A stretch of DNA of 64,000 bases from a virus, in the IMG/VR virus record IMGVR_UViG_3300010885_011634, positions 1 through 64,000 of that record; one strand, given 5' to 3'. Below are positions 6,227-57,512 of this stretch, piece after piece; within the stretch, counting starts at the first letter, position 1, and each line of letters opens with the position of its first letter. Position numbers and translations under genes: made by a program. The notes below the pieces were generated by a model, which ran no database searches, was not told where the DNA came from, and was given only the letters and a program-made list of their open reading frames with translations.

Positions 6227-7637
6227 CGCCGCCCATGTTGTTAAGGATTTCTCTTAACTTAGTTGATTCTACATGAGCACGTACTTTACCTACAGGCACG
6301 CCTTCTGTTGGCTCTTCACGCTCTTCTGTTTGTAAATTGGTCTTGCGTTTGATACTGTCAATAATTGAACTAGCACCGCGACTAGCTGAACCTCCGTGGT
6401 CTTGTTCATCTTCTGGTAAATCGCTGATCTTTAATGATTCTAGATTAAACTCTAGATCAATCTTCATACCAACACCACTCGAACTACGAGTTTTCATTAA
6501 CTGTATTTGATAGCGTCCACGTTCACGCATAGCCCTACTAGTGAAGATACCAAACACGTTATCTGCCGTTTGAATCTTACTTAAACCACCACTAATATGA
6601 CTGTGATCAAACTCAACTTCTTCAACTGCTCCACGATTCAACTGTGCCGCTGTAACGAACACACAGTTCTTTTCTACTGCTAGATTACGCAGTTCTTCTG
6701 ACACATACTTGTCTTTGATAAACAAGTCTGCTGGACTGATCTTTTTACTCACTGGCATCAGCAAGTCTAAATAGTCAACTAACAATACGTCTACTTTCTT
6801 GCCTACTTTGATTTCATATTCTTTTAAGTATGCTCGAATGTCGTTGGCAGTCTTACCGCTTGGCATGTACTTGACCTGTAACATACCTGCTTTCTTGCCT
6901 ATGATCTTAACTTTCATTTCAACATCATCTAAATCCTTAAAGATGTCTTTAGTTGCAATACCTGTAAGCATTGCATCAATACGCATACTAACCAATGCTT
7001 CTGAAAGTTCTAGTGTTAGATAAACTACATTAAGGCCCATTAACGCCCAGTTCACACCTAAGTTCGCTAAGAACAATGATTTACCTGCACCCGATCCACC
7101 TGCAAAGATATTCAACTCTCCGCGGTTCATGCCACCAAACAATCTACGATCCATGCTAGGCCAGCCTGTACTTACCTGTCCGTTTTTATCTTTAATACCT
7201 AATAGTCTACCACGTGGATCAGCAAAGTAGTCAGTACCCATATCACGTGCCAGTCCAATTTGTACTGCTTCTTTGATCAGTACTTCAACTGCACCGTAGT
7301 CATGCTTTTCTAATAAGTCTGCTGAATTAATAATTGCTCGTTCAAGAGCTTTGTGTTGTGTGAACTGTTCAAACTCATCCATGAACCAATCCATATGCCC
7401 ATCTTTGATTTCTTCAGGCTTTTTCAGTTCAGTACGACAAGTGGCATTGACCATTTCATAGTCCGGTAATACATTGTAGCCTTTAGCATATTCATTAATG
7501 AACTCTGCGGCATCTTGTAGTTTACGATCAAACAGGGTGTGATCAAAAATACCCTGACAGCGTACAAACACTTCTGCATCTGCTAACATTAATTCAAGAT
7601 ATAATTTTTGTACTTCGTATCCGTATTCTTTTATCAT
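6216..7637 (-). CDS. 41: replicative DNA helicase, gp41-like (DnaB family)
   Basis: A 473-aa RecA-fold helicase. An N-terminal helical domain (about 1-130) precedes the ATPase core with Walker A GGSGAGKS (180-187) and Walker B LLVDYLDLL (about 284-292). The C-terminal 70 residues are charged and probably flexible. In T4 this helicase forms a hexamer on the lagging strand and works with primase gp61, which is directly upstream here (3-nt gap). Length matches T4 gp41 (475 aa). Confidence 0.93.
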   Translation of the reverse strand: MIKEYGYEVQKLYLELMLADAEVFVRCQGIFDHTLFDRKLQDAAEFINEYAKGYNVLPDYEMVNATCRTELKKPEEIKDGHMDWFMDEFEQFTQHKALERAIINSADLLEKHDYGAVEVLIKEAVQIGLARDMGTDYFADPRGRLLGIKDKNGQVSTGWPSMDRRLFGGMNRGELNIFAGGSGAGKSLFLANLGVNWALMGLNVVYLTLELSEALVSMRIDAMLTGIATKDIFKDLDDVEMKVKIIGKKAGMLQVKYMPSGKTANDIRAYLKEYEIKVGKKVDVLLVDYLDLLMPVSKKISPADLFIKDKYVSEELRNLAVEKNCVFVTAAQLNRGAVEEVEFDHSHISGGLSKIQTADNVFGIFTSRAMRERGRYQIQLMKTRSSSGVGMKIDLEFNLESLKISDLPEDEQDHGGSASRGASSIIDSIKRKTNLQTEEREEPTEGVPVGKVRAHVESTKLREILNNMGGDEE

Positions 7638-7640
7638 ATA

Positions 7641-8660
7641 TTAATTATATACTCTTTCTAATTTTTGTTCTAGTTGTTTCATGGCCATTTGTAATTTTAT
7701 ATGTCCTTTTTGTGCTGTTTTGATAGCATCGACAATTACAAATAACTTGCCGTATCTCTGTACAGCATCTGCACTATCTTTTACGTCAGCATCCCAGTTA
7801 GGAAACGCCACGGCCCAGTCATGTTGGATAGCTCGTTTAATAAGCTCAAGCCCAGCTTCATCTTGATCGGGTATTACAATAACTTCATGCCCTAGACTAT
7901 TAATTATACGTGCCTGTTGATCCGCAATGTCGTTAGTGAGTAACGCTACACCACCTACTGCTAACGCATCAAATGGTCCTTCACAAACAAATACATATTT
8001 TTGATATTCTTCTTGGCTATCAACATTAAACACAAAATGCGGATGCTGATCAGAAATATATTTTGGTTTACCGTCTGTGACTTTACGAGCAGTATTGCCT
8101 ACTATTTCTCCTTTATAGAAAAACGGTAGTATTACTCTATTGTCAAATCCAGATAAAGGAGTCCAATAGAACTGTCCACTAAATGCATCATGCCCACGAT
8201 CAATAATATATTTGACTACACTAACAAATGCATCCTGACTATCGCTTGGCAAGTCGTCTACTATAGAAGACCATTCAGATATTGGCATAGCACCCTCTGG
8301 TAGTTCTTTTACTCCAAAGTCAACTACGGGTTCTGAATGAGTGGGTTGATAATCGGCAGATTCTGTTTTGAGTGCTTCAAAAATTAATTCTTTAATATCA
8401 TCTTCTGATGCACCTAACCATTTACAAAGATTCTTAAATTTGTTAGATATTGGACGACCCGGCAGCCAACTTGCTGTAAATTTACAATTGAAACAATTAT
8501 AAACTATACCTTGATCAAATCGTAACCCACCTCGTTTACGTGTATCTGATTTGTGGCCGCGATGTCCGCAACAGGGGGCGTTAAAACTAGTCCAACCAGA
8601 CGGACTTGCTTTTGCACGTGAAGGTAATAGCGTTCGAAATTTGTCAACTACGAGAGTCAT
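7641..8660 (-). CDS. 61: DNA primase, gp61-like
   Basis: A 339-aa primase. The N-terminus has a zinc-binding site (Cys30, Cys31, His33, then Cys56 and Cys59 in YNCFNCKF). A TOPRIM domain follows: Glu in FVCEGPFDALA (about 225-235) and the acidic pair in VIVIPDQDEAG (about 256-266). It makes RNA primers at the fork together with gp41, the next gene. A consensus sigma70 promoter puts +1 on its ATG. Confidence 0.92.
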   Translation of the reverse strand: MTLVVDKFRTLLPSRAKASPSGWTSFNAPCCGHRGHKSDTRKRGGLRFDQGIVYNCFNCKFTASWLPGRPISNKFKNLCKWLGASEDDIKELIFEALKTESADYQPTHSEPVVDFGVKELPEGAMPISEWSSIVDDLPSDSQDAFVSVVKYIIDRGHDAFSGQFYWTPLSGFDNRVILPFFYKGEIVGNTARKVTDGKPKYISDQHPHFVFNVDSQEEYQKYVFVCEGPFDALAVGGVALLTNDIADQQARIINSLGHEVIVIPDQDEAGLELIKRAIQHDWAVAFPNWDADVKDSADAVQRYGKLFVIVDAIKTAQKGHIKLQMAMKQLEQKLERVYN

Positions 8661-12019: not shown

Positions 12020-12254
12020 GTTCTTTACTCAAATGATATAATATTATAACACGTTCAAGAGCGGATTGCAAGGCCTCATTGGTCTTTGCTGCTCTCCGAA
12101 TTTCTCCCCAAAGTTTATCCTCTTTAAGTTGATCAAGCGAGTCTTGGAGGGCTGGATCCACTGAATGCAATGATCGATCTAAGGTTCCAAATTTTCGTGA
12201 ATAGACAGTCTTTCCACCATCTGGACTTTCAAATATAAGCGGTAGTTGTTTCAT
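12006..12254 (-). CDS. small conserved phage protein, 82 aa
   Basis: ATG 12254 overlaps the methyltransferase stop as ATGA; a longer frame to 12290 is less likely. The N-terminal motif LIFESPDGGKTVYSRKFG recurs in small proteins of marine T4-like phages, function unknown. The C-terminal half is helical and charged. Confidence 0.7.
   Translation of the reverse strand: MKQLPLIFESPDGGKTVYSRKFGTLDRSLHSVDPALQDSLDQLKEDKLWGEIRRAAKTNEALQSALERVIILYHLSKEHGPK
12043..12071 (-). promoter_or_regulatory. possible internal sigma70 promoter before the gp62-like gene
   Basis: Minus-strand TTGCAA (12071-12066), 17-bp spacer, TATAAT (12048-12043), +1 near 12036. The -35 box is only four of six. Confidence 0.4.
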
Positions 12255-12814
12255 TTTACAAACTTTAAGATTAATTCTGAGCCTACCCAATTTTTGAATT
12301 GTTCAGTCCACCAGTCTTGGTCTGTGCGCTCAAGCTCTTCTGCGGTGTATGCCTGCTCAATTTCAGTACCACGCTTTTTCTTTTTACCTAGTTTAAGATT
12401 TGTACCTATGAAACAAAACTTTGTTGTCATACGCATTAAATGATCAATTACTATTGATAAATCTTCTGTTGGAATAGCTGATAAGGCTTGTATGGCAATT
12501 ATAGCATCAAATTTAGAATCTAAAGGCGGATATACTTCAAATTTTTCAACGCAAGGATCAAACTTATATACTGATGTTAAATTTAAGTATTCGTCAAAAG
12601 TTTGATTATCAGTACCAAAATTAATTATTGATCCTGGCTCGTAGTGTAGACCTTTGCCGCAACCGTAATCTAATAATGTTTTAGCATTGTGTTTTTGTGC
12701 TAAGGCTTTAATTTCATCTGCATACGCTAATGTGCCGCCCCCTGAGTATGTTTTATTCTGCAGGTGAAACTGTCTAACACCCTCAACTCTATGATAATAT
12801 TCTTGACTAAACAT
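12251..12814 (-). CDS. SAM-dependent methyltransferase, class I
   Basis: A 187-aa Rossmann methyltransferase: motif I TLLDYGCGKG (about 46-55) binds SAM, followed by an Asp-containing motif II region (YKFDPCV, about 83-89) and a motif IV-like strand (FDAIIAIQAL). The acceptor is unknown; its place at the end of a sugar gene string suggests modification of a glycan or small metabolite. The start is 3 nt from the preceding stop. Confidence 0.8.
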   Translation of the reverse strand: MFSQEYYHRVEGVRQFHLQNKTYSGGGTLAYADEIKALAQKHNAKTLLDYGCGKGLHYEPGSIINFGTDNQTFDEYLNLTSVYKFDPCVEKFEVYPPLDSKFDAIIAIQALSAIPTEDLSIVIDHLMRMTTKFCFIGTNLKLGKKKKRGTEIEQAYTAEELERTDQDWWTEQFKNWVGSELILKFVK

Positions 12815-12816
12815 TG

Positions 12817-13500
12817 TTACACCTGTGAATTATAAAAATTTAATAAGTTTACGTACTGTTCGTTTTCGTGTTTTCTAGATCCTTTTGCTGTCCAAATCAT
12901 TCGATCAGGAGTCATCTTTGTACCAGTCCACTCAGAACTTAATTGCGGTATTGGTTTTTCAATCATCATAGCATCTAATATATCTTGATCTAAAAACCAA
13001 TAAATGTTTCCTTGTTTGAAACTTTCATATAATCTAGTGCTGTATGTATTTCTAAAATCATCAGCTCCAAATGATATCGCACTGGCTAATGACTTACCAC
13101 CTTTTCTAATAGTAATTTTACTAAGGTCAGTTGCTTCTAAAAATTTAGTTAGTGGGATTGTTTTATTAGCAATCACATCACAATCAAAACTTATAACCTT
13201 TGCAGAAGGATCAAATATTTCCGGAATTCTTATAAACCGAATGCAAGCACATAACGTATTAAATTCTTTATTATTAATATCTATTAATTCGCTGGTATAG
13301 CTTACGCTTTTTTGAGAGCACCATTCTAGTTGTTCATTGGTTGGATTATACAAATGAACATGAACATTTGCCCACGGTGCATGTTGTAGTAAACTTAATG
13401 CTAGTGCTTTGCCATATAGATCAAAATATTTTGAATCTGCTGCAAAGTAGAAGAAGTTACCAACTAAGCGAGACGGTACATTCAAAGACGGTAGGATCAT
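12817..13500 (-). CDS. glycosyltransferase, GT8-like (GT-A fold)
   Basis: A 227-aa protein with a DxD-type metal/nucleotide site in VISFDCDVIAN (about 103-113), preceded by KALALSLLQHAPWANVHVHLYN and followed by the GT8-type acceptor segment WFLDQDILDAMM (about 168-179). It probably transfers a hexose from a UDP-sugar. It overlaps the sugar reductase gene by 4 nt (ATGA), tying it to the pathway genes upstream. Confidence 0.8.
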   Translation of the reverse strand: MILPSLNVPSRLVGNFFYFAADSKYFDLYGKALALSLLQHAPWANVHVHLYNPTNEQLEWCSQKSVSYTSELIDINNKEFNTLCACIRFIRIPEIFDPSAKVISFDCDVIANKTIPLTKFLEATDLSKITIRKGGKSLASAISFGADDFRNTYSTRLYESFKQGNIYWFLDQDILDAMMIEKPIPQLSSEWTGTKMTPDRMIWTAKGSRKHENEQYVNLLNFYNSQV

Positions 13501-14312
13501 AGATTTTTTAATTCGTTAAGCATTATATCGTAATTGGGAATATTGAACTCTAATAATTTACGTGTATCAATTAAGATTTTGTTTACAGGCTTTGGACCTT
13601 GTGTCTGTACAATAGTTTTGTTAAGAGCAAATGTTTCATTTATCTTACACAACAAGTCATATTTGTTAATTTTATTATCGTTATTAACAAGATGGTACAC
13701 TCCGGTAATTACAGGAGTTTGCATGTATTGATCAATACATTTTGCTAACTGTAAGGTAGTAATGCCATTCCACCAAGCATTATCCCATCCTTGTAATTCA
13801 GTCGCTGGGTTGTTAACGACCCAATTAAAAAGTCCTGTGCCATTCGATTTTAACTCAGGGCCAATAATACTCATTCTAAATGTAACATCTTTACTGTTAT
13901 TCACTTCACCTAAGGATTTTGAGTTGCCATAGGCATTCATTTCAGTATGAACATCTGCTTCGACGTATTCACCTTTCTTACCATCAAACACGCAGTCTGT
14001 TGAAAGATGTATTAGTTTCGTAGCAGTATTTTTTAATGCCTGCTCAACGTAGTGCGGAAACCAAGAATTAATAATTGCAGCTCTATCTGGACGATCATTG
14101 CTGTCTTTGACTAACAAGCCAATACAATTTATAACGTAATCGTAGACATCAATATTATTAAAAAACTGTGTAACATCTACTACATTTTCGATGTCTAAAT
14201 GAAAATCAGCATCAGTTCTAGCGACAGTATGCACAACATAATTTTGTTGTTTAAGATACTTTACAATAACATGTCCAGCCATGCCATTGGCGCCAATTAC
14301 TAAGACTTTCAT
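13497..14312 (-). CDS. RmlD-type sugar-nucleotide 4-reductase
   Basis: A 271-aa extended SDR: NAD(P)-binding GANGMAG (7-13), the family motif LSTDCVFDGKKG and catalytic Tyr-x3-Lys in YGNSK. It follows the dehydratase (4-nt overlap) and the 2-epimerase. WbjC/CapF enzymes carry an additional C-terminal cupin of about 100 residues that is absent here, while reductases of the UDP-L-RhaNAc/L-QuiNAc branch (WbvR type) do not. The latter branch is therefore inferred. Confidence 0.8.
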   Translation of the reverse strand: MKVLVIGANGMAGHVIVKYLKQQNYVVHTVARTDADFHLDIENVVDVTQFFNNIDVYDYVINCIGLLVKDSNDRPDRAAIINSWFPHYVEQALKNTATKLIHLSTDCVFDGKKGEYVEADVHTEMNAYGNSKSLGEVNNSKDVTFRMSIIGPELKSNGTGLFNWVVNNPATELQGWDNAWWNGITTLQLAKCIDQYMQTPVITGVYHLVNNDNKINKYDLLCKINETFALNKTIVQTQGPKPVNKILIDTRKLLEFNIPNYDIMLNELKNL

Positions 14313-15289
14313 ATGAACTTACCTTTTTTCAGCATTTCCTTAATCTCAGATTTGTTCATGATAAACGTCTTAGATGAAAATTCTTGATGTGCAAATTTCT
14401 TTAGATCTTTATATTTTTCAGTTAATTCAGCACTAGATTTAGAAGGTAGAATAACAAAATAATTTTCATCGTAACAATACGATAACGGTGATTCATGTTT
14501 TGAAATTAACATTTCATCTAATTTTTCACCAGGACGGCCGCCAATTTCTTTTATTTCTACAACACCATATTCGTCTATTAGTACATTGGCAATATCTCTA
14601 ATATAACATGCTGGCATATTCATAACAAATGTTTCACCACCGATACTGTCTTCTGCTGCTTTGAATAACAAACTTATTGCTTCTTCTAATGTCAAGAAGA
14701 ATCGGGTCATTTCTATATCAGTGATAGTGATTGGCCCACCTGCTTTAATCTGTTCTATAAAATAAGGAATTACGGAGCCATTTGAGCCCATAACATTGCC
14801 GCCTCTAATACAAACAAATTTAGTATAGTCGGTTAAATCATTAGCTTGGATAATTAATTTCTCGCCTACAGATTTAGTCATTCCATATAGGTTAACCGGT
14901 TCAACAGCCTTATCAGTGCTTACATCGATAACCTTTTTTACACGATTTTCAATAGCGGCATTAACAATATTACTGGTGCCGGTAATGTTTGTTTTGATTG
15001 CTTCTTGCGGATGTTCTTCACATACCGGAACGTGTTTAAGAGCAGCCATATGAAAAATATAATCAATATTCTTAGTGGCAAATCTTACAGAATCATAGTC
15101 ACGAACATCACCAATTACATACTTAATGCGCTGGTCATTAAACTTTCGTTGCATTAAAACTTGTTGTAGTTCACCTCTAGAAAATACAACAATTTCTTTT
15201 ACATCGTATTTTTCCAATAACATTCTAGTTAAGGTTTGCCCCCAAGAGCCCGTGCCCCCGGTTATTAAAATTCTTGCATTATTAAACAT
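14309..15289 (-). CDS. UDP-GlcNAc 4,6-dehydratase/5-epimerase (CapE/FnlA/PseB family)
   Basis: A 326-aa SDR with GGTGSWG (11-17) and STDKAV (124-129) followed by Tyr135 and Lys139 in NLYGMTK, the catalytic set of short inverting dehydratases. It removes water from UDP-GlcNAc and inverts C5, the first step to UDP-L-FucNAc, UDP-L-QuiNAc or pseudaminic acid. The adjacent reductase and 2-epimerase argue for the L-sugar route, not pseudaminic acid. Confidence 0.85.
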   Translation of the reverse strand: MFNNARILITGGTGSWGQTLTRMLLEKYDVKEIVVFSRGELQQVLMQRKFNDQRIKYVIGDVRDYDSVRFATKNIDYIFHMAALKHVPVCEEHPQEAIKTNITGTSNIVNAAIENRVKKVIDVSTDKAVEPVNLYGMTKSVGEKLIIQANDLTDYTKFVCIRGGNVMGSNGSVIPYFIEQIKAGGPITITDIEMTRFFLTLEEAISLLFKAAEDSIGGETFVMNMPACYIRDIANVLIDEYGVVEIKEIGGRPGEKLDEMLISKHESPLSYCYDENYFVILPSKSSAELTEKYKDLKKFAHQEFSSKTFIMNKSEIKEMLKKGKFI

Positions 15290-15297
15290 ATTTTTTC

Positions 15298-16374
15298 CTA
15301 AGTTGACATCAGTATGTTAATTACTGTATCCGATACATTTGTTTTATTATACTCACTAGGGATGCCCCAATTTTTATTAATTGCCTTGGCGCTGTTATAG
15401 CAAGAAATTATATTTTCTTTTTTAAGGCCGCTAATAATATTCGATCCACACCAAATTGTTTCCGGTCTTTCTGTTGTATCTCTAATGGTAATTGTTGGTA
15501 TACCAAATAAACACATCTCTTCTTGCACAGTACCTGAATCGCTAATTGCCATATATGCATTTTTTTCTAAGTTAACAAAATCAAAAAATCCTAACGGTTC
15601 AGTCATTATGATATTTGGATTATCAACTAAAATATTAAACTTTGCTAATTTTTGTTTAGTTCTAGGATGGCAACTAAACACTATTTTATATTCTTTAGAT
15701 ATTTCTTCAAAACTTTCAAAAATATTAATTAATCGATCATCAACATCAACATTTTCTGCTCGATGTGCAGTGGCTATAATGTAGTTATTTTTTTCAAGAT
15801 TAAGTGTTGTTAATATAGAGGAACTGTTGATTTCAGTTGCATAAAAATCTATTACTTCTTTGATTGGATTTCCTGTGACAAATACTTTATTGTTTGTAGC
15901 ACCTTCACGTAATAAATTTTGACGACTTAATTCAGTGTAAGGTAAATTTATACTAGACACAGCATCAATAATTTTTCTATTCTTTTCTTCAGGAACTTTG
16001 AGATCATAACAGCGATTACCAGCTTCCATATGGTAGACTGGAATGCCTAATCTTTCACATATGATTGCTGCTAGCCCAGAGTTAGTATCGCCCAATATTA
16101 AAACTTTATCAGGATTAAACTCTTGTAGATATTGTTCTACTCCAACAAACATCTTACCGATTTGTTCAGCTGTGGTACCTTTACTATCTATTACGACATC
16201 AGGTTTACGTATGCCTAAATCGTTAAAGAAAATATCGTTAAGCGCAGGATCGTAGTTTTGTCCAGTATGTAGTATGCGATGATCGCATAACTGATCAAGT
16301 TTAGGTATAATTCTAGACAGTCGTATGATTTCTGGACGTGTGCCTAGGATTGTTAATATCTTACAATTAGCCAT
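15298..16374 (-). CDS. UDP-N-acetylglucosamine 2-epimerase family (WecB/CapG/FnlC)
   Basis: A 358-aa GT-B-fold epimerase: N-terminal TILGTRPEIIRL, VLILGDTNSGLA (about 92-103), HMEAGNR and the C-terminal SDSGTVQEE (about 279-287), all standard for the family, at full length. With the dehydratase and reductase downstream it completes a three-enzyme UDP-L-amino-sugar pathway, epimerising C2 in the last step. The final sugar cannot be decided from sequence alone. Confidence 0.87.
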   Translation of the reverse strand: MANCKILTILGTRPEIIRLSRIIPKLDQLCDHRILHTGQNYDPALNDIFFNDLGIRKPDVVIDSKGTTAEQIGKMFVGVEQYLQEFNPDKVLILGDTNSGLAAIICERLGIPVYHMEAGNRCYDLKVPEEKNRKIIDAVSSINLPYTELSRQNLLREGATNNKVFVTGNPIKEVIDFYATEINSSSILTTLNLEKNNYIIATAHRAENVDVDDRLINIFESFEEISKEYKIVFSCHPRTKQKLAKFNILVDNPNIIMTEPLGFFDFVNLEKNAYMAISDSGTVQEEMCLFGIPTITIRDTTERPETIWCGSNIISGLKKENIISCYNSAKAINKNWGIPSEYNKTNVSDTVINILMST

Positions 16375-17035
16375 TGATTAAATTCATAGTGCTGCTGTCA
16401 AGATTATATTCTTTACAATAGGCTTCGACAAACGGAATAATGTTTGTTTTTAGTGTTGATTCTATATCAAACGATTTTTTTATAAAACACCCGGTCCATG
16501 ATGTGGGAGAAGTTAAAAAGAATAGATTATAATTTTTGTGTAGCTCTTCATTGAAATAATATTCATACCAACTAATTCCTCTAGGTTGGCAATCGTGAAA
16601 TCCAATGATATCAAATTTATCAAATAAGGTATTGATTGACAGCGTTCGAGCGCAGGTAAAATGATCTACAAATAGCATCTTAGGCTCCAATGGTTCGTTT
16701 CCAATAGTCACAGAAAGATCTTTATAGTAGTCGATAATTTTATTTTTTTGTTCGGGTGCAAGCTCTCTTAAAAATGTTCTTAATTTAATATCACTGCCTA
16801 AGTCGTGAAATATTAAACTACACCGTGCATCAAAATTGTTATTTTCTTTAACATGATTTAGCCATTCTTTATCGTTGTCAATAAAAAATAGTTTTTCTGC
16901 TTGTGAATTAAGGAATACCGGCGACGAATATAATCCTGTACCTAATTCAACTATTAATTTTGGATTCAGTGCCGCAACTACAGTTTTAAGCAACGGTACA
17001 TGAGTACTCCATTCGTAATCATTAACTATATTCAT
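16367..17035 (-). CDS. SAM-methyltransferase-fold protein
   Basis: A 222-aa protein with a Rossmann start (KLIVELGTGLYSSPVF, about 26-41; an acidic residue ends the next strand in FFIDND). MLFVDHF and IIGFHDCQ resemble later strands of methyltransferases that act on sugars or surface glycans. The acceptor is unknown. It overlaps the genes on both sides by 4-8 nt. Confidence 0.65.
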   Translation of the reverse strand: MNIVNDYEWSTHVPLLKTVVAALNPKLIVELGTGLYSSPVFLNSQAEKLFFIDNDKEWLNHVKENNNFDARCSLIFHDLGSDIKLRTFLRELAPEQKNKIIDYYKDLSVTIGNEPLEPKMLFVDHFTCARTLSINTLFDKFDIIGFHDCQPRGISWYEYYFNEELHKNYNLFFLTSPTSWTGCFIKKSFDIESTLKTNIIPFVEAYCKEYNLDSSTMNLING

Positions 17036-17898
17036 TTTAGTTCTCCTAATGTTTTTATAGCTGCGGTAAGAAAATTATTATAGTCATTTATATTGGTTTT
17101 GTCAAGTTTGCTTTCAAATTCTTGTGCAAGCGGATGACCAGCATACCAGTGAAATCCAATAACCCCAGGGGCGTAAATTAGGTCTAGCATGTCTTCTGTT
17201 GGTGTTGAAAACACTGCTGGGATTGAGTCCTCTTGAAGGGAATATACACACTTTGGTTCAATAAAATATACATTCATTTCTCTTCCAAAATCTTTTCTTA
17301 TCTTTACTTGACTGTGATAGTTATTATCAATTAGTAAGCTGCCAATACACTGATATTGTGTTTCGTCGTAGGCTTCCTTTGCCAGCTCACCTATTTTTCT
17401 ATAAAAAGGATTATTACCTGCCGACATTAAAAAACTGATTGCATGTTTGGATTTCTTAAAACAGCATAGAAACGCATCAATTGACTGTTGATACCCTTCC
17501 TCAACATTTTCAACTAAATTGTTCATTGGCTTAACATACAAAATATCAATATCTGACCATACCCCGCCTTCTGTAGACAATAAGCGCCAGCGTAGAAAAT
17601 CACTTTTGTGAACTTCGTGGGCGTCATTGTCAAAGTCTTCAGAAAAATCTTCCTTTACAATCTCAACGTCCAGAGCATGTAATTCGTCAAAATAGTCCTT
17701 GTCAATATTGGCTCTTTTTTGATGCATACTATGCCACGGTGGCGGTTTAGTAGTAAGTTTTACCGGAACATGGATTTTAATTTTCCAGTCCGGATTCAGT
17801 ATTCTAAACGACAGTACTGATAGATATCGTAAGAATGATAACTTTTTATTGCCCCAATAAAAATGCATAACTTTGGGAATTTTTGTTAGATACCACAT
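17032..17898 (-). CDS. glycosyltransferase with DXD motif (GT32-like)
   Basis: A 288-aa protein: N-terminal IPKVMHFYWG and the hallmark KSDFLRWRLLSTEGGVWSDI (about 97-116) with the DxD as SDID. These match the sugar-binding DXD family (OCH1/capsular type). It probably transfers a hexose from a nucleotide sugar. It is one of several glycosyltransferases in this string. Confidence 0.82.
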   Translation of the reverse strand: MWYLTKIPKVMHFYWGNKKLSFLRYLSVLSFRILNPDWKIKIHVPVKLTTKPPPWHSMHQKRANIDKDYFDELHALDVEIVKEDFSEDFDNDAHEVHKSDFLRWRLLSTEGGVWSDIDILYVKPMNNLVENVEEGYQQSIDAFLCCFKKSKHAISFLMSAGNNPFYRKIGELAKEAYDETQYQCIGSLLIDNNYHSQVKIRKDFGREMNVYFIEPKCVYSLQEDSIPAVFSTPTEDMLDLIYAPGVIGFHWYAGHPLAQEFESKLDKTNINDYNNFLTAAIKTLGELK

Positions 17899-18662
17899 AT
17901 TGTGTCCTTATTATTAGCTCTAAAAATGGGAGGATCAGACGCTTGCAATTTAGCAAGTAGTTGTCGATTGTCGACTGTTGCTGGAGGCGCCAGTGGGTTA
18001 TTATACAATTTAGGATGCCATTGATGTATAACATACGGTGCTTCAACAAACGTCACATTTAATTTTTTATTTTTAATTCTTTGTAAAAACTCGTCATCAT
18101 CATAACTATGACCAAGAGCAAATTCTTCATCAAACCCATTTAATTCGCATAGGTTTTTTCTAGTAATTGCTGAGGTAAAATGGTATCCTACCGGATGGTG
18201 TATACGATGATTAACCCATTTTGTTTTACTAGATTTTGTTCCACCCACATCTATTGTACCGCCCTGATGTAGAATTCTAACGTCACCTTTATTGCATGCC
18301 CAACAATGAAAAGTTAGATAATTGTCATTAGTTAATGCTTGATTCACATATGATATAACGTCTCCTTCGTGACAGCATTCCGGATTTTGAATAATGATTT
18401 TATCTCCAGAGCTTTCACGAAATCCTACATTATATGGTACACACGGATTGAACCAAGTTTTTGATCCACGGTCTGACATTTTAATTATTTTAATATTCAA
18501 CAATGGAAATTCATTAGGAATTGTATCTAAACTGTTTTCTAAGTTGCTAAAATCATCTACAATTATTACTTCAAAGTCTTTTTCTCGACTTTGCATAAAT
18601 GTTTTTAGAGTGTGTCTTAATAACTCTAATCGATTATAATATGCCATTACTATTGATATCAT
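17886..18662 (-). CDS. glycosyltransferase family 2
   Basis: A 258-aa GT2 protein: ISIVMAYYNRLELL at the start, FEVIIVDDFSN (about 30-40) for nucleotide binding and GSKTWFNPCVPYNVGF, typical of this fold; LCELNGFDEEFALGHSYDDD (about 178-197) is the conserved C-terminal acceptor/base region. Likely adds a sugar to a surface or virion glycan. It overlaps both neighbours. Confidence 0.85.
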   Translation of the reverse strand: MISIVMAYYNRLELLRHTLKTFMQSREKDFEVIIVDDFSNLENSLDTIPNEFPLLNIKIIKMSDRGSKTWFNPCVPYNVGFRESSGDKIIIQNPECCHEGDVISYVNQALTNDNYLTFHCWACNKGDVRILHQGGTIDVGGTKSSKTKWVNHRIHHPVGYHFTSAITRKNLCELNGFDEEFALGHSYDDDEFLQRIKNKKLNVTFVEAPYVIHQWHPKLYNNPLAPPATVDNRQLLAKLQASDPPIFRANNKDTICGI

Positions 18663-19258
18663 GATAGTTTCAACTCAGCCATTATATATTTGTTTCGTTG
18701 ACTAATCACATTAACAATTTCCACACCTTCTTCTTGCTCGGGCATATTGGTCTTTTTATATATTACTCGTAAATCCATTACAACTCTTGTATTTGCATGT
18801 GAATGTTTTAATATTAAATCTTTATAAGTGTTTACAGGATAGTGAAACCCACAAGACACCCACGATGTGATTAGATCAAATTTAACATCTTCTGGAATGT
18901 TAATATTATTACAATCGATTAAATGATAATTTTTAGTACCTAATTTTTTTAATTCTGCGTCCACTTCTGATAATGGATGATAGAATAAAAAATCTTCAGC
19001 TGTCTTATTATATTTTCCAGTTGATGCTATAGGAGATTTGGAATCGTTATCTTTGGTATCACCGTCCAGTAACCACAATTCGGAATTATATTTTTCATTG
19101 AACATCCTCGATTCCCAAGCAAGTCCGCATCCAATGTCCAAAATCTTCAGTGGTGCGCTACCTAAAAACTTATCTAAAATTTCAAAGTTTTCTTTCTTGT
19201 AGCGTTGATATAATTCTGTATCCCAGAGTCCATCGTCGCCTATCCACTGTTTTGTCAT
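18659..19258 (-). CDS. SAM-dependent methyltransferase-like protein
   Basis: A 199-aa protein with motif I LKILDIGCGLAWESRMF (about 37-53), an acidic motif II (LWLLDGD) and FDLITSWVSCGFHYP near motif IV. It overlaps the cupin gene (ATGA) upstream and the GT2 gene downstream. The acceptor is unknown; sugar methylation is plausible from context. Confidence 0.75.
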   Translation of the reverse strand: MTKQWIGDDGLWDTELYQRYKKENFEILDKFLGSAPLKILDIGCGLAWESRMFNEKYNSELWLLDGDTKDNDSKSPIASTGKYNKTAEDFLFYHPLSEVDAELKKLGTKNYHLIDCNNINIPEDVKFDLITSWVSCGFHYPVNTYKDLILKHSHANTRVVMDLRVIYKKTNMPEQEEGVEIVNVISQRNKYIMAELKLS

Positions 19259-19602
19259 TTACTAAATCCTACGCTATCTCGTTCAATATCTTCATGATCA
19301 AATTCTGCCCAATACAATTCAAATGCCACAGTATCTTCCAAGGCTTCAAATTGGTGGTATTCACCAGGAGCAACTTTAGTGTATTGACCTGCCGTTAAAA
19401 CTGTTTCGTCAACTAGATCATAGTTGTTTTTCCAAACACGAATAATAAGTTTTCCAGATTCAACAAAGAATCCGTTCCACTTAAATTGGTGCTTGTGCTT
19501 AGAACAGACGCCGCCCGCCCGGGCTTCGATACGGTGAAACTCTAATACACCGTTGGCTTCAAGGAGTTCTGTTTGACCCCACACTTTACCTGCTATCATC
19601 AT
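19255..19602 (-). CDS. single-domain cupin
   Basis: A 115-aa cupin beta-barrel with metal-ligand candidates His37 and His39 (KHKHQFKW), Glu/Gly positions (FVESGKLIIRV) and His83 (PGEYHQFEAL). It resembles the cupin half of mannose-6-phosphate isomerase-type proteins and the C-terminal domain of the fusion at 29154. AGGACC precedes two adjacent ATGs. Probably acts on a sugar or small ligand. Confidence 0.75.
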   Translation of the reverse strand: MMIAGKVWGQTELLEANGVLEFHRIEARAGGVCSKHKHQFKWNGFFVESGKLIIRVWKNNYDLVDETVLTAGQYTKVAPGEYHQFEALEDTVAFELYWAEFDHEDIERDSVGFSK

Positions 19603-22808: not shown

Positions 22809-23624
22809 TTATTTGAAATTAAGTCGTTGTAATGGAATACCTTGTGCAATTTCTTCTACAGTCCATTCTGTGTGACATAATTTTAGAAACCATTCCTGTC
22901 TATCAGGTAACGCAATGTTTTCAATATTTTCAAATTTATCACTAACAGGATAGGCTAAACTACTACTGTCACATATTATTGGAACTCCGGCAATTGCCGC
23001 TTGTACCGCAGGACCGCTGTTGTGATTCACCACACAATGATAGTTATAATTGATATCAAAATCATCGTAGCTGTTGGGTATCTGTTTTGGAAGTTCTACT
23101 ATCACCCCTGGAATGTTCACCGTAATTACCGATCTAGGATGCGGCCTAAACACTATATTACGATCGCTATACTTACGAATATTAGCAACTGATTCTTCAA
23201 CCCACTTATTCATTGCAGGTTGATCAATCCACTGTTGACTGGCTTTATGCTGTCCTGCAATTAAAATATTATCTTGTCTAGATTCTTGTACAGGCTGTAA
23301 CGATACTTTTAATTTGTTAGGTCTTTCTAAATCTAATTCGGATTGATTTCCAAACTCTCCAAGACCATTTATGTGGTTAAGACTAATTCTCCATGTCTTG
23401 CCCCTATGAAGATTCCCAACCTCAATGATCACAATTGGCTTACCTGATTGATAAACTTGTTGATTACGGGCCATACGTCCTTGCCAAAGCACTGACCATA
23501 TAACTGCTACATCTTCATTACGAGTTACTATTTCGTGTCCAAGAGATCTCAGTCCTTTTTCAAAGGCATCAAAGACAGGTGGGCTATTCAAAGCACCATA
23601 TTCGCGATATAATCTGAAGCGCAT
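22809..23624 (-). CDS. glycosyltransferase-like protein, tandem family member 1
   Basis: A 271-aa GT-B-like protein. The C-terminal half shows the family pattern: IVFRPHPR, an Asn-Ser-Gly-Pro-Ala loop in VVNHNSGPAVQAAIAGVPII and an end WTVEEIAQGIP. This is like the nucleotide-sugar half of capsular Kdo-type transferases. It is the most diverged of five copies (others at 24895, 25811, 26910, 27680). Substrate unknown. Confidence 0.65.
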   Translation of the reverse strand: MRFRLYREYGALNSPPVFDAFEKGLRSLGHEIVTRNEDVAVIWSVLWQGRMARNQQVYQSGKPIVIIEVGNLHRGKTWRISLNHINGLGEFGNQSELDLERPNKLKVSLQPVQESRQDNILIAGQHKASQQWIDQPAMNKWVEESVANIRKYSDRNIVFRPHPRSVITVNIPGVIVELPKQIPNSYDDFDINYNYHCVVNHNSGPAVQAAIAGVPIICDSSSLAYPVSDKFENIENIALPDRQEWFLKLCHTEWTVEEIAQGIPLQRLNFK

Positions 23625-42016: not shown

Positions 42017-45000
42017 TTAGATCTCTCCTGTATTCTTGACACGCAATGGAATGTAAATGAACTCAACGGCCTTAACAGGTTCAATTGCGATATCTACCCA
42101 TAGCTCATTACGATCAACCCTTGCTGCTGTGTTGTTAGTTTCATCACACACAACTGCAAAGTCATATAAAGCACGTAAGCCCACTAATTCAAGCAATAAA
42201 CTTTCAACTGCTTGTTTAATTTCATCACGTGTAATCTTATCATTTGGTTCAAAGATATATGGACGAGCTAATTTGTTTAACTGACTACGTAAGTAAACTG
42301 TTAAACGTGCTACGTTGATTCGATCTAATGCACTTGCATTTCTTGCACGAGTTTTTTGACCATAGTTAACTAAACCAACACCATTAAAGAATGTAATTGG
42401 ATTAATTTTTAAGTCATAAAGTGTATCACGTTGACCTTCATTCAGAGCAACTGTTTGGAACTCACCTGTGTTACCATCAATATAACCTACTGATGTTGCA
42501 TTAGTGATGCCGCCACGTCTTGTACCTGCTGGTGCAAACCATGGATAACTTGCATTGTCACTTAGTGCAATAGTTTTCAACATCATATGTGTTGATGGAA
42601 CAACTGCGTTTGAACCACTTAAGTCTGTTGTAAATCCGCTTGGATAAAACACAGCTAAGTATTCATCATATGTAACAATACCCATATCACCGTTATCTGT
42701 TACTAGTTCTGCGTTAGAACCCCAGTTAGTTAATGATGTAGCATCGCTTGGTAAACGTAATGGAGTGTCTGCAATAACAAATGCAGTTACACCACGATCA
42801 ATGTTTAAGTTAACTAAGTTGCTCATTAGCTCAGGATATCCTGGGCAAGCAATTAAGTTAAAGTTACGACGTTCTTCATCACGGATCTCTGCGCTTGTAT
42901 CAACTGCACTCTTAAGTGCTGCTACTACAACACCACGTTGTGCTTTGCGTAAGAATGATCCTGAACCATCTTCGTTATTTGCTGAAGCGGTAACCCAACG
43001 ATCAACTTCTGTGTAAGTGCTCATTGACATTGCAGTAACTACCGCATTACCTAATGGACTGTTTGTAGAGTCAAAACGTTGATTGTCTTCTGTTTGATCA
43101 ATAAAGTTTCTAACATATTTTTTAACGTTACCATCTGAACGACGTAGATTCCATAACAACATACCTTTTGGATATAGTGCTGGATCCGGAGCATCTGGAT
43201 CTAAATAGTTACTGGCTAATAATGTTGCAATTGAAGCTGCTGTATTGCCTGCTGCTCCGCTTGATCCCCAACGTGCATCGGCAAATAAAATGCCGCTTTC
43301 TGTTGTTTGATCTGTTTTATCAACTAATTCCCATTTCTCTGAATTAGGAACTCCTTGGATGCTGCTGTTGTAGCGATAAATTGTTGGGAAGTTTTCTAGA
43401 TCAGCTGTGCTAATCCATAAATCATTATCAACAAATGTTACACCGCCTGTGTATGGATTTGATGCTGATACTGTAGGGCCTGTTGCACTAGTACTTGCAA
43501 AATTATTTGTATATCCAACCCATGTGCGACCGTTGTGTACCATGATATCAATTTCACTAACTTCTGAATTGTACCACATTTGGCCATCTGCTGGAGCATT
43601 ATTTGGAGCCGAGCTTGCTGCTAAGAAATTATCAGCTGCTAATGGTTTCCAGTTTGAAGCTACATATTGCTCACTAGCACTGGCTGGTAGAGCATAGAAA
43701 TTTGCTGTGCCTGTTAGTGCGTCAATGTTGAAGGCTGTATACAATCTTTCTAATGCTGTTAAACTTGCACCACTTGCTGCAAAACGTAACTCACCGCCTT
43801 CCTTGTGTGTAATTACTAATTCATTGTCAGCAGTAACACCTGCTTCTAAGTAACTAGGAATTTCAACTGGATTAGCTGGATCTGAATTATCGTAACCAAA
43901 GTTTGCAATACCGTTAATTGTGTCTGCAATTGTTCTAGGATCATCAACTGTACCAGCAGCAGTAAATGTTAATGCTGTTGATACTAATGTTGCGCTGCCC
44001 GGAATACTTTGTTTAAGCGTCCAAGTCTTGTTACCACCAGCAATTAGATATGAACTTGTAACTGCTTTTGATGTGATCGAAGTTCCAGTGTTAGCACTTT
44101 TTGCTCTGACCCAAATTCTAAATGTTGCTGTTTCTGGTGAAGCATCGTATCTGTTATCTTCTAATGCATTTGTTTGAACATATAATGCACTTTGTTCAAT
44201 GTTTGCGCCACCACCTGAACGATCTAGGTAATATAATGCTGCGTGACTAGAGGCATAAATTGGAGCTGCTACTGAAACCCAAGTTTCTGTTGCAGAATTC
44301 CAACGTTTAACAATCCAACGTGCACCACTGTTTGGTTCTGTTGTCTTGATCCAGACTGATCCACTTGGACGACCGTTTGTTAATGTTCCGCTACCATCAT
44401 CATCGTCATCACCAATTTTGAAAGCTGGGATACTTGTGTGTGGGTTTTGTGTTAATTTAGGACCATGGAATGTTCCTGCTGTTAACCCAATAGCTGATAG
44501 TGACAATGTTCCGGCAGCTACCGTAATAGCATTAGTTAGTGATGAATCGCCATCATTGCCTGCTAAATCACCACCGCCCATTTGGCCAGCATCAGCATAT
44601 AGGTATAGTCTGCTGTTTACGACTCGAGCAGTAACACCATTAATTAACAAACCGTTGATAGTGTCTACTAAGCCGTTTACTGTATTATTTGGTGCCGATG
44701 CTACAGTAACTAATGTACCGTTAATTGTAAAATTACCAGCGGCAATTGCGCCAGTTACTGCTGAACTGCCTTTAATAGTAGGCCAGCTAGCTGCCCATTC
44801 TTGGCTACCAACTAATACCCAATCACCTGCATTAACGGCTGTGCCGCCACCTGCGATTCCGCCGTTTCCTGGGGACTTGTAATAAATTCTGCCATATTCT
44901 CTTGGTGCTGAAAATGTTCCAGGGCCGTCAACTGTTTGTAATACAACAGCATAATCACCAATAGAACCAACTGACTCTTTTGGTGCGTTACTGTTGATGT

Positions 45001-45529
45001 TATCGACATCGTCGTCAGTTAACACCATTGGAATTTTAACTGTAAATTTCTGACCGCCTACTACTGTTGAGGGTGAACCGTTCCACTCTTGGATACCCCA
45101 AGCTGTAGAAGTTGTGTCTACCCACCATTGGCCATCGTCTGGATTTGCTCCCGGGGCTGAAGCCGAAGCTTCTAATTGTGTTAAATCAACATCAGCCCTA
45201 ACGATAAATGCTGCGTTGCTAACTCCTAGCAAACTGTAAGCTGCTAGTAGTCCGTATTCGTTTCTTTCGCCGCCATGCACTGGATTTGTAGATGCTGTCT
45301 TTTCAAAGAAAGGTACACCAAAGTAATCTACTAGATCTTTTTGGCTTGTCATCTTAAATGCTTTTCCAGCATTTGCTTTAGTAGTCGCTGTAGCAGTGCC
45401 GGTGCCTGCTGCGTTTGTTTTATCTTGTCCTGATGCTACGACGATAAGAGGTGTTGTACCTGGTTCTGCAGGTGTGTATTGACTCTCGTCGATTACCGTA
45501 ACTTGTACTCCGGGTGATTGTAGTGCCAT
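42017..45529 (-). CDS. 18: tail sheath protein, gp18-like, very large
   Basis: At 1170 aa it is much longer than T4 gp18 (659 aa). The N-terminal SPGVQVTVIDESQYTPA and the C-terminal sheath core (about 800-1170, including NVARLTVYLRSQLNKLARPY and WVDIAIEPVKAVEFIYIP) are classic. Between them (about 125-790) lies an insertion of beta-type modules with repeated Trp/Asn-Gly motifs (about 130-150, 390-420, 645-670, 695-730), also found in two other virion proteins here. AGGAG precedes the ATG. Confidence 0.93.
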   Translation of the reverse strand: MALQSPGVQVTVIDESQYTPAEPGTTPLIVVASGQDKTNAAGTGTATATTKANAGKAFKMTSQKDLVDYFGVPFFEKTASTNPVHGGERNEYGLLAAYSLLGVSNAAFIVRADVDLTQLEASASAPGANPDDGQWWVDTTSTAWGIQEWNGSPSTVVGGQKFTVKIPMVLTDDDVDNINSNAPKESVGSIGDYAVVLQTVDGPGTFSAPREYGRIYYKSPGNGGIAGGGTAVNAGDWVLVGSQEWAASWPTIKGSSAVTGAIAAGNFTINGTLVTVASAPNNTVNGLVDTINGLLINGVTARVVNSRLYLYADAGQMGGGDLAGNDGDSSLTNAITVAAGTLSLSAIGLTAGTFHGPKLTQNPHTSIPAFKIGDDDDDGSGTLTNGRPSGSVWIKTTEPNSGARWIVKRWNSATETWVSVAAPIYASSHAALYYLDRSGGGANIEQSALYVQTNALEDNRYDASPETATFRIWVRAKSANTGTSITSKAVTSSYLIAGGNKTWTLKQSIPGSATLVSTALTFTAAGTVDDPRTIADTINGIANFGYDNSDPANPVEIPSYLEAGVTADNELVITHKEGGELRFAASGASLTALERLYTAFNIDALTGTANFYALPASASEQYVASNWKPLAADNFLAASSAPNNAPADGQMWYNSEVSEIDIMVHNGRTWVGYTNNFASTSATGPTVSASNPYTGGVTFVDNDLWISTADLENFPTIYRYNSSIQGVPNSEKWELVDKTDQTTESGILFADARWGSSGAAGNTAASIATLLASNYLDPDAPDPALYPKGMLLWNLRRSDGNVKKYVRNFIDQTEDNQRFDSTNSPLGNAVVTAMSMSTYTEVDRWVTASANNEDGSGSFLRKAQRGVVVAALKSAVDTSAEIRDEERRNFNLIACPGYPELMSNLVNLNIDRGVTAFVIADTPLRLPSDATSLTNWGSNAELVTDNGDMGIVTYDEYLAVFYPSGFTTDLSGSNAVVPSTHMMLKTIALSDNASYPWFAPAGTRRGGITNATSVGYIDGNTGEFQTVALNEGQRDTLYDLKINPITFFNGVGLVNYGQKTRARNASALDRINVARLTVYLRSQLNKLARPYIFEPNDKITRDEIKQAVESLLLELVGLRALYDFAVVCDETNNTAARVDRNELWVDIAIEPVKAVEFIYIPLRVKNTGEI

Positions 45530-54334: not shown

Positions 54335-54505
54335 ATGTGGACTGTAGAAGGTAAAACGTTTGATCGCTACTATAAGGCATACGAGTATGCTGCTGGGTTA
54401 TCAACAGAATTACAAAGAGAAGTAGAGATTATTAAACAAGGCGAATCTAAAGGCGTTAAAATTTTTGTAGGAAGAATTGTATCAGGCTACGCTGCAGATA
54501 TTTAG
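54335..54505 (+). CDS. small late protein, 56 aa
   Basis: ATG 54335 follows AAGGAG and a perfect late promoter. A soluble, charged protein (TVEGKTFDRYYKAYEYAAGL, GVKIFVGRIV). Unknown. Its stop interlocks with that of the next minus-strand gene (TTAG at 54502-54505). Confidence 0.7.
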   Translation: MWTVEGKTFDRYYKAYEYAAGLSTELQREVEIIKQGESKGVKIFVGRIVSGYAADI

Positions 54506-55146
54506 AGTCTACTAAAATCTAGCTCAGATAAATTAGGGTTAGATCCTACTTTTCCAATTATCATAGAGTTAAAAGCTAACGATTTCCTTGGGGTAGAGAA
54601 CGAATTTTTATCTACCCCATGTTTAAGATAACTAGGAAATAATAATAACGTATTTTTCCTAGGGTTAACTTTATAAAAATCCCAAGCAAAGTCATTTTCA
54701 ATAGATGCGTCACGGCAAATCTCAAATTGCGTTATTTTACTTGGTCTTAAAAAAGATAACGGTTCAAACGGAGGCTCTTGCCAATAGAAGCATCCCGATA
54801 TCAAACTGTTTGGATGCCGGTGGTATGTGTGTTGCTCGTTAACGTTTTTAATCGATACCCAACTTTGTGTCAATTCTATCTTTTCAAATCGGTATGCAAG
54901 TACTTCACGAGCATAGATTTCTAAATGTGTTATAATAAAATCTCTTAGTAGCTTACACTTAGGATTATCTAAAATATACGTATCTTCACTTACAGATCCA
55001 TATGTCTGTACATTTTCGTAGGCATTATTTGATCTCAATTTAGCAGTATCTAAAAACTCAACTGCTTCCGCTACATCTTTTTGACACAATGCAAAATATA
55101 ACGGTGTTGGAAATATTCCTATAACTTCGGTAAAATCTTCATTCAT
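54502..55146 (-). CDS. 2-oxoglutarate/Fe(II) oxygenase-like, HxH subgroup
   Basis: Start chosen at ATG 55146, just after the upstream stop; the longer frame adds a hydrophobic leader encoded inside the neighbour. The 214-aa protein has EQHTYHRHPNSLISGCFYW, distal His in PSYLKHGVD and Arg in RKSLAFNS. The expected acidic metal ligand is replaced by His, as in three neighbours. It fits the putative 2OG-Fe(II) oxygenase group common in marine phages. Confidence 0.68.
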   Translation of the reverse strand: MNEDFTEVIGIFPTPLYFALCQKDVAEAVEFLDTAKLRSNNAYENVQTYGSVSEDTYILDNPKCKLLRDFIITHLEIYAREVLAYRFEKIELTQSWVSIKNVNEQHTYHRHPNSLISGCFYWQEPPFEPLSFLRPSKITQFEICRDASIENDFAWDFYKVNPRKNTLLLFPSYLKHGVDKNSFSTPRKSLAFNSMIIGKVGSNPNLSELDFSRL

Positions 55147-55147
55147 C

Positions 55148-55768
55148 TTATTCTCCCAACAGTACGTTGCCTGCAATTGAAATACGAATATCATCAGAAT
55201 TATAAAACGGATATACACAATGTCTTAACATCGCTGGAAATATTAAAAGTTTTCCTTCATAGGTGTTATCTACTATAAACTCAGTAGGTCGAGTATTCCC
55301 TAAAATATCAGAATAGGTAATTTCAAATTTTCCAGCAAATTTATAATTTGATGTATCCTTTGGTATTTTAACCCACAGGACATAACTTAAAATTCCTTCG
55401 TGTTGGTGGTTAGGAAAAAATTCATTGGCTTTTTGTAAATTGACCCAAGGATCTTGAAAGTGTAACGGTGCTTGAGTTTTTAGGTAATTCAAACTTCGTA
55501 GATACAATGACCTATCGTAATATTCTGCAACAGCATCTGCTAAAAAGTTTTTGAATTTTTCATTATTTTCTATTAGCTTAAAGTGTGTAGGTACGCCAGT
55601 TGACGATAACCCCGTAGTATGCAATGTTGTCCAGTATTTTTCTTTATCTCGATAATTTTTTTCTATATCGATTGTTTCTAGTTTGATAGATTCAAACAGT
55701 TCAGATGGAATATCCATTAGTAATAAACTAATATTGTTTAATACTAGATCTTCTACATTATTGATCAT
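55148..55768 (-). CDS. 2-oxoglutarate/Fe(II) oxygenase-like, HxH subgroup
   Basis: A 206-aa protein: FFPNHQHEGILSYVLWVKIP, then EGKLLIFPAMLRHCVYPF and RISIAGN at the C-terminus. The site reads His-Gln-His-Glu. It overlaps the next upstream gene by 11 nt and is 1 nt from the start of the next. Target unknown. Confidence 0.68.
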   Translation of the reverse strand: MINNVEDLVLNNISLLLMDIPSELFESIKLETIDIEKNYRDKEKYWTTLHTTGLSSTGVPTHFKLIENNEKFKNFLADAVAEYYDRSLYLRSLNYLKTQAPLHFQDPWVNLQKANEFFPNHQHEGILSYVLWVKIPKDTSNYKFAGKFEITYSDILGNTRPTEFIVDNTYEGKLLIFPAMLRHCVYPFYNSDDIRISIAGNVLLGE

Positions 55769-56915: not shown

Positions 56916-57512
56916 CTATGGCACCAACTTAATGTTAAAACTAATTGAAATTCTTTCTTTTTCTGAAATATTTGGTAACGTTCCATGTTGCAGCCACGAT
57001 GGAAACAACACCAATCGATTAGTAACAGCTTTATATTTGATGTTTGACGTTAAAAATTTTGATCTTAAACATAGCTCTGAATGATTGTATGCACTCGATG
57101 GTGCCATAAATTGAATGTCTCCACTGTTTTCGTGCGTCTGTACATAGTAGGCGCCGGAAATATCACTATACGGGTGACAGTGATATTCTTGATACATTCC
57201 TTTTTCTGAATAGTTAATCCATGAATCATACATATTAAGATATGAATATTTAGGATTTACTTCTAATTGATTTAAGAATGTATTTACAGATGCTAATATA
57301 TGATTTTTTAATATTGGGCAATGATTTTGAATTATATGATTCGATTGATTGTACTTAAATGTAGTCAGTATGTTTCCACCCCAAGGATTATTTAAGGTAG
57401 ATTTTTTATATTCATCACATACTGTTTGTGTTTCGGCATCTAACGATGTCTTAAGGTCAGCATCGTTGCAATCAACTACAAACACAGGTACTCCAAAGCA
57501 CATTTCTATCAT
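56916..57512 (-). CDS. 2-oxoglutarate/Fe(II) oxygenase-like, HxH subgroup
   Basis: A 198-aa protein: YDSWINYSEKGMYQEYHCHP, then SDISGAYYVQTHENSGDIQF, FPSWLQHGTLP and ERISISFNI. This is the clearest match to the small phage oxygenase group (first part binds Fe, Arg of ERIS binds 2-oxoglutarate). It overlaps the next upstream gene by 4 nt. Confidence 0.7.
   Translation of the reverse strand: MIEMCFGVPVFVVDCNDADLKTSLDAETQTVCDEYKKSTLNNPWGGNILTTFKYNQSNHIIQNHCPILKNHILASVNTFLNQLEVNPKYSYLNMYDSWINYSEKGMYQEYHCHPYSDISGAYYVQTHENSGDIQFMAPSSAYNHSELCLRSKFLTSNIKYKAVTNRLVLFPSWLQHGTLPNISEKERISISFNIKLVP

Follow-up and report, generated by a model that had tools for sequence, protein, structure and literature searches.

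The window analysed here is the 64,000-base stretch at positions 1-64000 of a virus record that is 91,263 bases long. It comes from a T4-like myophage, as genes for UvsX, a gp32-like SSB, terminase, tail sheath and a UvsW-like helicase are found, and the phage is an aquatic relative of T4. On the minus strand lie, in this order, the intact and adjacent reading frames of a C2-epimerase (EPI), a dehydratase (DEH) and a reductase (RED). EPI and DEH are spaced by 8 bp, while DEH and RED overlap by 4 bp. The three genes belong to a block running from 19602 down to 10873 whose genes overlap or nearly touch, and which also contains glycosyltransferase and methyltransferase-like genes (Table 1). No T4-type late promoter (TATAAATA) was found directly upstream of the operon. 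An initial annotation had described three adjacent enzyme genes of a UDP-L-amino-sugar pathway at 13497-16374, and coordinates, families and catalytic residues all agree with this. The glycosyltransferases that it placed alongside are also found, two of them upstream of EPI and probably a third next to RED. The latter assignment comes from the L015 protein, a member of the same BLAST cluster, which has a weak Glyco_transf_8 match (0.009). The 16367-17035 product has no match in Pfam or PHROG, and a Pfam search with the 18659-19258 product gave none either.

Table 1. Predicted genes of the sugar operon and its immediate surroundings
Product	Coordinates	Strand	Size and evidence
Methyltransferase	12251-12814	-	Methyltransf_23 1.7e-5 (just under cut-off); phrog_24759 8e-11
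Probable GT8-like glycosyltransferase (weak)	12817-13500	-	4-bp overlap with RED; BLAST cluster of L015 protein
RED, RmlD-like 4-reductase, predicted bifunctional C3-epimerase/C4-reductase	13497-14312	-	271 aa; RmlD_sub_bind 1.2e-25 (Pfam)
DEH, predicted UDP-GlcNAc 4,6-dehydratase/5-epimerase, Tyr-type	14309-15289	-	326 aa; Polysacc_synt_2 4e-95 (Pfam)
EPI, C2-epimerase (non-hydrolysing, CapG/WbjD/WbvD branch)	15298-16374	-	358 aa; Epimerase_2 1.6e-89 (Pfam)
Class-I methyltransferase-like protein, upstream of EPI	16367-17035	-	sequence appearance and position only
Glycosyltransferase, Gly_transf_sug, DXD motif	17032-17898	-	Pfam 6e-8
GT2-family glycosyltransferase	17886-18662	-	Glycos_transf_2 1.2e-8 (Pfam); 93% identity in L172-L177, L179, L181
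Methyltransferase-like protein	18659-19258	-	appearance of sequence; 92% identity in L172-L177, L179, L181
Stand-alone cupin, operon head	19255-19602	-	115 aa; Cupin_2 1.6e-5; WbuC-like 2.8e-5

DEH carries S124-T125-D126-K127, Y135 and K139, and thus the [ST]DKxnYx3K motif of inverting dehydratases (PMC8987622). Motif and residues support the annotated 5-inverting 4,6-dehydratase, the inversion itself being predicted from the sequence. Among PDB sequences the best match is FlaA1 (2gn4; 260 bits, 3e-76), followed by FnlA (255 bits), Pen/CapD 6bwc (241), CapE (240) and the Megavirus enzyme Mg534 (4TQG; 159). That DEH is further from Mg534 than from FlaA1 and FnlA suggests a separate acquisition. 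Its best model, PseB TIGR03589, gives 337 bits, under the cut-off of 407.75, and the FnlA model TIGR04130 gives 269 bits, under a cut-off of 730. Maximum-likelihood analysis joins the phage sequences in a single clade (100/100) nested in a clade of Tyr-type dehydratases (100/99), which also holds sequences of Asgard archaea, Clostridium, Halanaerobiales, a Spirochaete and Aliibacillus, and which is separate from FlaA1/PseB and from CapE/FnlA. No product of an enzyme of this exact clade is reported in the literature accessible. As far as the CapE/FnlA/WbjB branch is concerned, the suggested WbjB/WbvB type does not fit, since Tyr135 occupies the site where CapE, FnlA and WbjB have Met and DEH falls outside the CapE/FnlA clade. 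As to the first enzyme of pseudaminic acid synthesis, DEH shares with PseB/FlaA1 the inverting 4,6-dehydratase motif and its best PDB relative, but its score under the PseB cut-off and its separate clade led us to reject a PseB equivalog. Moreover, no aminotransferase (PseC) or other Pse gene is found among the neighbours at 12251-19602.

In EPI, D96, E117, E130 and H204 are present, the residues with catalytic roles in WecB. Of the PDB sequences, CapG (7ya2) is the best match at 2e-93, against 6.5e-38 for E. coli WecB, and the motif HMEAGNRC is common to EPI and CapG. The EPI tree places a phage clade (100/99) within the epimerases of Tyr-type operons (99/93), away from Mj WecB. EPI is therefore of the CapG/WbjD type and not, as initially labelled, of the WecB type. 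With 282.7 bits it nevertheless exceeds the cut-off of the NCBIfam wecB model (210.15), and it appears that the CapG branch falls within reach of that model. The EPI tree mirrors that of DEH, both enzymes having the same cellular relatives. The loss of catalytic residues from one of the enzymes was looked for, and those expected are present in all three.

RED consists of a single RmlD domain without a cupin (Pfam), and its best PDB sequences are RmlD-like proteins. The AlphaFold model, for which 35 sequences were used, reaches a mean pLDDT of 96; in a Foldseek search it matches RmlD crystal structures best, Pal (6bwl) coming 32nd. T105, C107, Y128 and K132 are present. In a MAFFT alignment Cys107, the last residue of an STDC motif, matches Cys109 of E. 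coli Fcl (GDP-fucose synthase), the position being Tyr106 in E. coli RfbD; BLASTP and HHalign also give the match with Fcl. STDC107 is invariant in 62 of 62 phage REDs, a set assembled by way of DEH and hence not selected for this cysteine. Bacterial REDs likewise have it (79/79), a biased count since they were partly picked by the pattern HLSTDCVF. To form L-RhaNAc, C3 must be inverted in addition to C5. With Cys107 as the C3-epimerisation residue, a cupin-less RED can complete the route and the cupin is not needed. Megavirus Mg535, a 270-aa RmlD-like reductase that both epimerises C3 and reduces C4, has kept this cysteine of GDP-fucose synthase (PMC9614988). The C4 stereochemistry (L-manno, not L-talo), which is not readable from sequence, is assigned to RED by analogy with Mg535. 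The view that a reductase lacking the cupin favours L-RhaNAc/L-QuiNAc is thus borne out by the domain structure and reinforced by Cys107. The idea of a split CapF, in which the stand-alone cupin at the operon head would supply the C3-epimerase, is unlikely, because the cupin gene follows UvsW, with which it is syntenic, and in several type-B phages (see below) lies on the strand opposite to DEH-RED. A profile of this cupin found no PDB sequence. It is probably outside the sugar pathway.

Taken together, EPI, DEH and RED probably give the phage a complete pathway to UDP-L-RhaNAc and UDP-L-QuiNAc, the products being predicted. We infer the substrate, the products, the C4 stereochemistry, the acceptor and the timing of expression, and the chemistry is deduced from the enzyme families, their residues and the Megavirus precedent. 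DEH would oxidise C4 of UDP-GlcNAc, remove water across C5/C6 and invert C5 to give UDP-2-acetamido-2,6-dideoxy-L-arabino-4-hexulose. RED would then epimerise C3, with Cys107 as acid/base, and reduce C4 with NADPH to yield UDP-L-RhaNAc, which EPI would convert into UDP-L-QuiNAc by inverting C2. The adjoining soluble glycosyltransferases and methyltransferases may assemble a glycan from these two sugars.

Some bacteria and giant viruses are already known to have pathways of this kind. In work attributed to Kneidinger (2003), Vibrio cholerae O37 reportedly uses WbvB, WbvR and WbvD as a three-enzyme UDP-L-QuiNAc route with a cupin-less reductase. By this description the phage set resembles it, but the Vibrio genes belong to a cellular O-antigen locus. 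The closest precedent is the Mg534/Mg535/Mg536 pathway of Megavirus chilensis for UDP-L-RhaNAc and UDP-L-QuiNAc (reviewed in PMC9614988 and PMC10117803). Mg534 and Mg535 were shown to make UDP-L-RhaNAc, and the virions contain RhaNAc and QuiNAc (PMC9614988). The three enzymes have 323, 270 and 370 aa and comprise a dehydratase with Tyr140-x3-Lys144, a cupin-less RmlD-like reductase with the Cys and a WbvD-like epimerase, WbvD being cited in the same source (PMC9614988). Phage and Megavirus sets are both encoded by viruses and share the three activities, sizes, contiguity, the Tyr-x3-Lys dehydratase and glycosyltransferases next door, as well as the cupin-less reductase with its C3-epimerase Cys and the WbvD-like epimerase, Mg535 having been compared by its description. 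They differ in that Megavirus is a giant virus of amoebae and that the phage system has variants without epimerase. In the UDP-L-FucNAc pathways CapE/CapF/CapG, FnlA/B/C and WbjB/C/D, the dehydratases are homologous to DEH and CapG is far nearer to EPI than is WecB, but DEH has Tyr instead of Met and forms its own clade, and RED is devoid of the CapF cupin. Pelagimyophages and phages of Patescibacteria are also aquatic and carry glycosyltransferases and nucleotide-sugar enzymes; those described in the accessible parts of PMC7029224 and PMC12911398 are rfaE, UDP-glucose dehydrogenase and rml/gmd genes, with no L-RhaNAc/L-QuiNAc set.

The association of the three genes is not a matter of chance. 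Sixty-three IMG/VR loci carry DEH at 68-81% identity, and in each of the 63 phage loci whose length allows a judgement, the window among them, RED follows DEH, adjacent or within 1 kb, mostly with a 4-bp overlap. A reciprocal search with EPI gave 13 phage loci, with DEH and RED in 12 of the 12 that are long enough. The genes also cluster in bacteria and Asgard archaea: of 80 RED loci from bacteria or archaea, 55 have all three on one strand, and five cellular loci, all with a Tyr-type DEH, have the phage order EPI-DEH-RED. Two types of phage can be distinguished among the 48 loci, out of 64, that include 3 kb or more of sequence upstream of DEH. EPI is found there in 25 (type A) and a methyltransferase-like gene in 23 (type B); every locus has one of the two genes and no locus has both. 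The type-B gene, directly upstream of DEH, encodes a Methyltransf_24-like protein of 183-187 aa. EPI is absent from the whole of three type-B records of 210, 188 and 162 kb, which are possibly incomplete, and the EPI-free phages retain DEH-RED. The constancy of DEH-RED, the mutual exclusion of the two upstream genes and the absence of EPI elsewhere imply alternative end products, QuiNAc or RhaNAc; in type-B phages the pathway should end at UDP-L-RhaNAc. In the DEH tree most type-B phages fall into one derived clade (100/99; L054 is unplaced), so that EPI appears to have been lost or replaced secondarily. The RED tree mixes the two types, which suggests recombination. In some type-A phages a methyltransferase immediately precedes DEH; several have the two as one frame of 529-531 aa. 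A methyltransferase beside or fused to DEH hints that the product sugar may be methylated, by analogy with the 4-O-methyl-L-RhaNAc of Megavirus fibrils (PMC9614988). In a tentative and more doubtful model, the Tyr-type DEH-RED module of this aquatic T4-like phage lineage would make UDP-L-RhaNAc, and swapping just one gene upstream, for an epimerase or for a methyltransferase, would switch the glycan of the phage's own or the infected cell's surface between L-QuiNAc and (O-methylated) L-RhaNAc.

Other products have to be considered. Should RED set C4 in the L-talo configuration, as WbjC/CapF do, the operon would make UDP-L-PneNAc and, through EPI, UDP-L-FucNAc. The nearest solved relative of EPI does come from the L-FucNAc pathway, and many related operons have CapE/FnlA-type dehydratases. 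However, RED is without the CapF-type cupin fusion, DEH lies outside the CapE/FnlA clade, and the nearest layout shown biochemically, that of Megavirus, yields RhaNAc and QuiNAc, which makes this route unlikely. It is very unlikely that RED reduces without epimerising C3, so that EPI would act on an unusual UDP-6-deoxy-L-hexosamine (altro or ido): although DEH scores nearest to PseB/FlaA1, whose product keeps the C3 configuration, Cys107 is invariant at the C3-epimerase position of GDP-fucose synthase and EPI is of the branch acting on C3-inverted L-sugars.

Two further readings detach one enzyme from the others. Pen (6bwc) has the TDKxnYx3K motif too (PMC8987622) and is the phage clade's neighbour in the DEH tree when this is rooted at the midpoint; DEH might thus be a Pen-like 5,6-dehydratase, its pathway incomplete without a Pal-like partner. 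FlaA1 and FnlA nevertheless outscore Pen, from which long branches separate the phage clade, and the fold of RED points to RmlD structures well before Pal, so that we hold this to be highly improbable. Least probable of all is that EPI acts as a WecB on host UDP-GlcNAc, giving UDP-ManNAc unconnected with DEH-RED. Its score above the wecB cut-off would allow this, but WecB structures score far under CapG, DEH-RED accompanies EPI in every phage locus long enough, and the three genes cluster in cells as well. The pathway to UDP-L-RhaNAc and UDP-L-QuiNAc remains the preferred reading.

Both L-RhaNAc and L-QuiNAc are rare and occur mostly in bacteria. In the open-access literature they were found reported, among viruses, only for giant viruses, and a limited test of that literature gave no phage report of this pathway, of the Tyr-type dehydratase clade or of the either/or upstream gene. 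A phage-borne version is thus apparently undescribed. When GenBank was searched for near relatives among phages, DEH and EPI had as their two best matches Staphylococcus 'phage' records that resemble host capsule genes, and these were set aside. Because this phage brings the whole donor pathway instead of single glycosyltransferases, it would not depend on its host for the sugar, and the phage coding of the glycan can be tested through the sugar composition of virions or infected cells. From the constant DEH-RED pair and the exchangeable gene upstream of it, the sugar carried by each phage can be predicted.

As to the host, the psbA and psbD families had no match in eight records, hence there is no cyanobacterial signal. 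As to the acceptor, no GtrA or Wzx-type flippase was found when searched for, nor a predicted membrane segment in the sugar genes or a membrane-bound glycosyltransferase. This speaks against a bactoprenol route of the phage's own, while the use of host machinery remains compatible. It favours neither of the two roles that the initial annotation put forward, alteration of the host O-antigen and decoration of virions. Glycosylation of DNA is weakly countered by the lack of a thymidylate synthase/hydroxymethylase family member in seven, perhaps partial, records; other base modifications exist. We lean slightly towards virion proteins, glycosylated in the cytoplasm, as acceptor; host surface glycans, reached through the host's export machinery, are nearly as likely.

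The neighbours of the pathway are also conserved. The product of the gene next to RED (12817-13500) recurs at 90% identity in most of L172-L181, and L172-L177, L179 and L181, a group among the loci that the EPI search gave, carry both the flanking methyltransferase-like gene at 18659 and the GT2 gene at 17886 (92-93%). One locus of this group sits in a record of 281,658 bases.

The gene order of the phage cassette, predicted C2-epimerase (EPI), predicted UDP-GlcNAc 4,6-dehydratase (DEH) and RmlD-like reductase (RED), also occurs on the Asgard archaeal contigs L086, L091 and L095 (Lokiarchaea/Promethearchaea). The archaeal dehydratases are of the Tyr type, with Tyr at the catalytic site where CapE/FnlA-type enzymes have Met, and are 58-61% identical to the phage DEH. 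A distant DEH-RED pair (38-39% identity each) is found in LR745206.1, an uncultured phage of 634,780 bases (L168); no EPI match lies near it, and it appears to sit within a glycan island in the genome of this huge phage.

In the 281-kb phage group recovered via EPI (L172), a gene intervenes between EPI and DEH. Judged by eye alone, it resembles neither a methyltransferase nor a glycosyltransferase so much as a 2OG-Fe(II) oxygenase. In several phages, a methyltransferase and the dehydratase form a single frame of 529-531 aa; in L010 they are two separate, overlapping genes. Many of these phages carry several copies of one family adjoining the sugar cassette. This family, with members in the window and L015, has no Pfam or PHROG match and possibly consists of GT-B-like glycosyltransferases. 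Two Staphylococcus 'phage' records, OR844989.1 (282 kb) and OR849864.1 (19 kb), hold apparent host capsule genes, which are probably host contamination.

Coordinates of features in the window and in homologous loci
Feature	Locus	Positions	Remark
DEH-RED pair	L168	2144-3091, 8001-8843	spacing about 5 kb
EPI-DEH intervening gene	L172	about 7040-7840	judged by eye
Methyltransferase-dehydratase	L016	171-1766	
	L017	3205-4800	
	L018	7392-8987	
	L022	7348-8937	
	L023	4000-5589	
	L029	3348-4943	
Multi-copy family	window	22809-23624	
	L015	3422-4261, 9771-10721, 10693-11805	
Tryptophan-halogenase-like	window	58089-59273, 59842-61314, 61307-62896	
2OG-Fe(II) oxygenase	window	54502-55218	
	window	57509-58096	weak
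Tail sheath	window	42017-45529	1170 aa

Elsewhere in the window, three tryptophan-halogenase-like genes are clustered, with 2OG-Fe(II) oxygenase genes nearby. The tail sheath protein is longer than the corresponding PHROG profile (915 positions), which is covered end to end.
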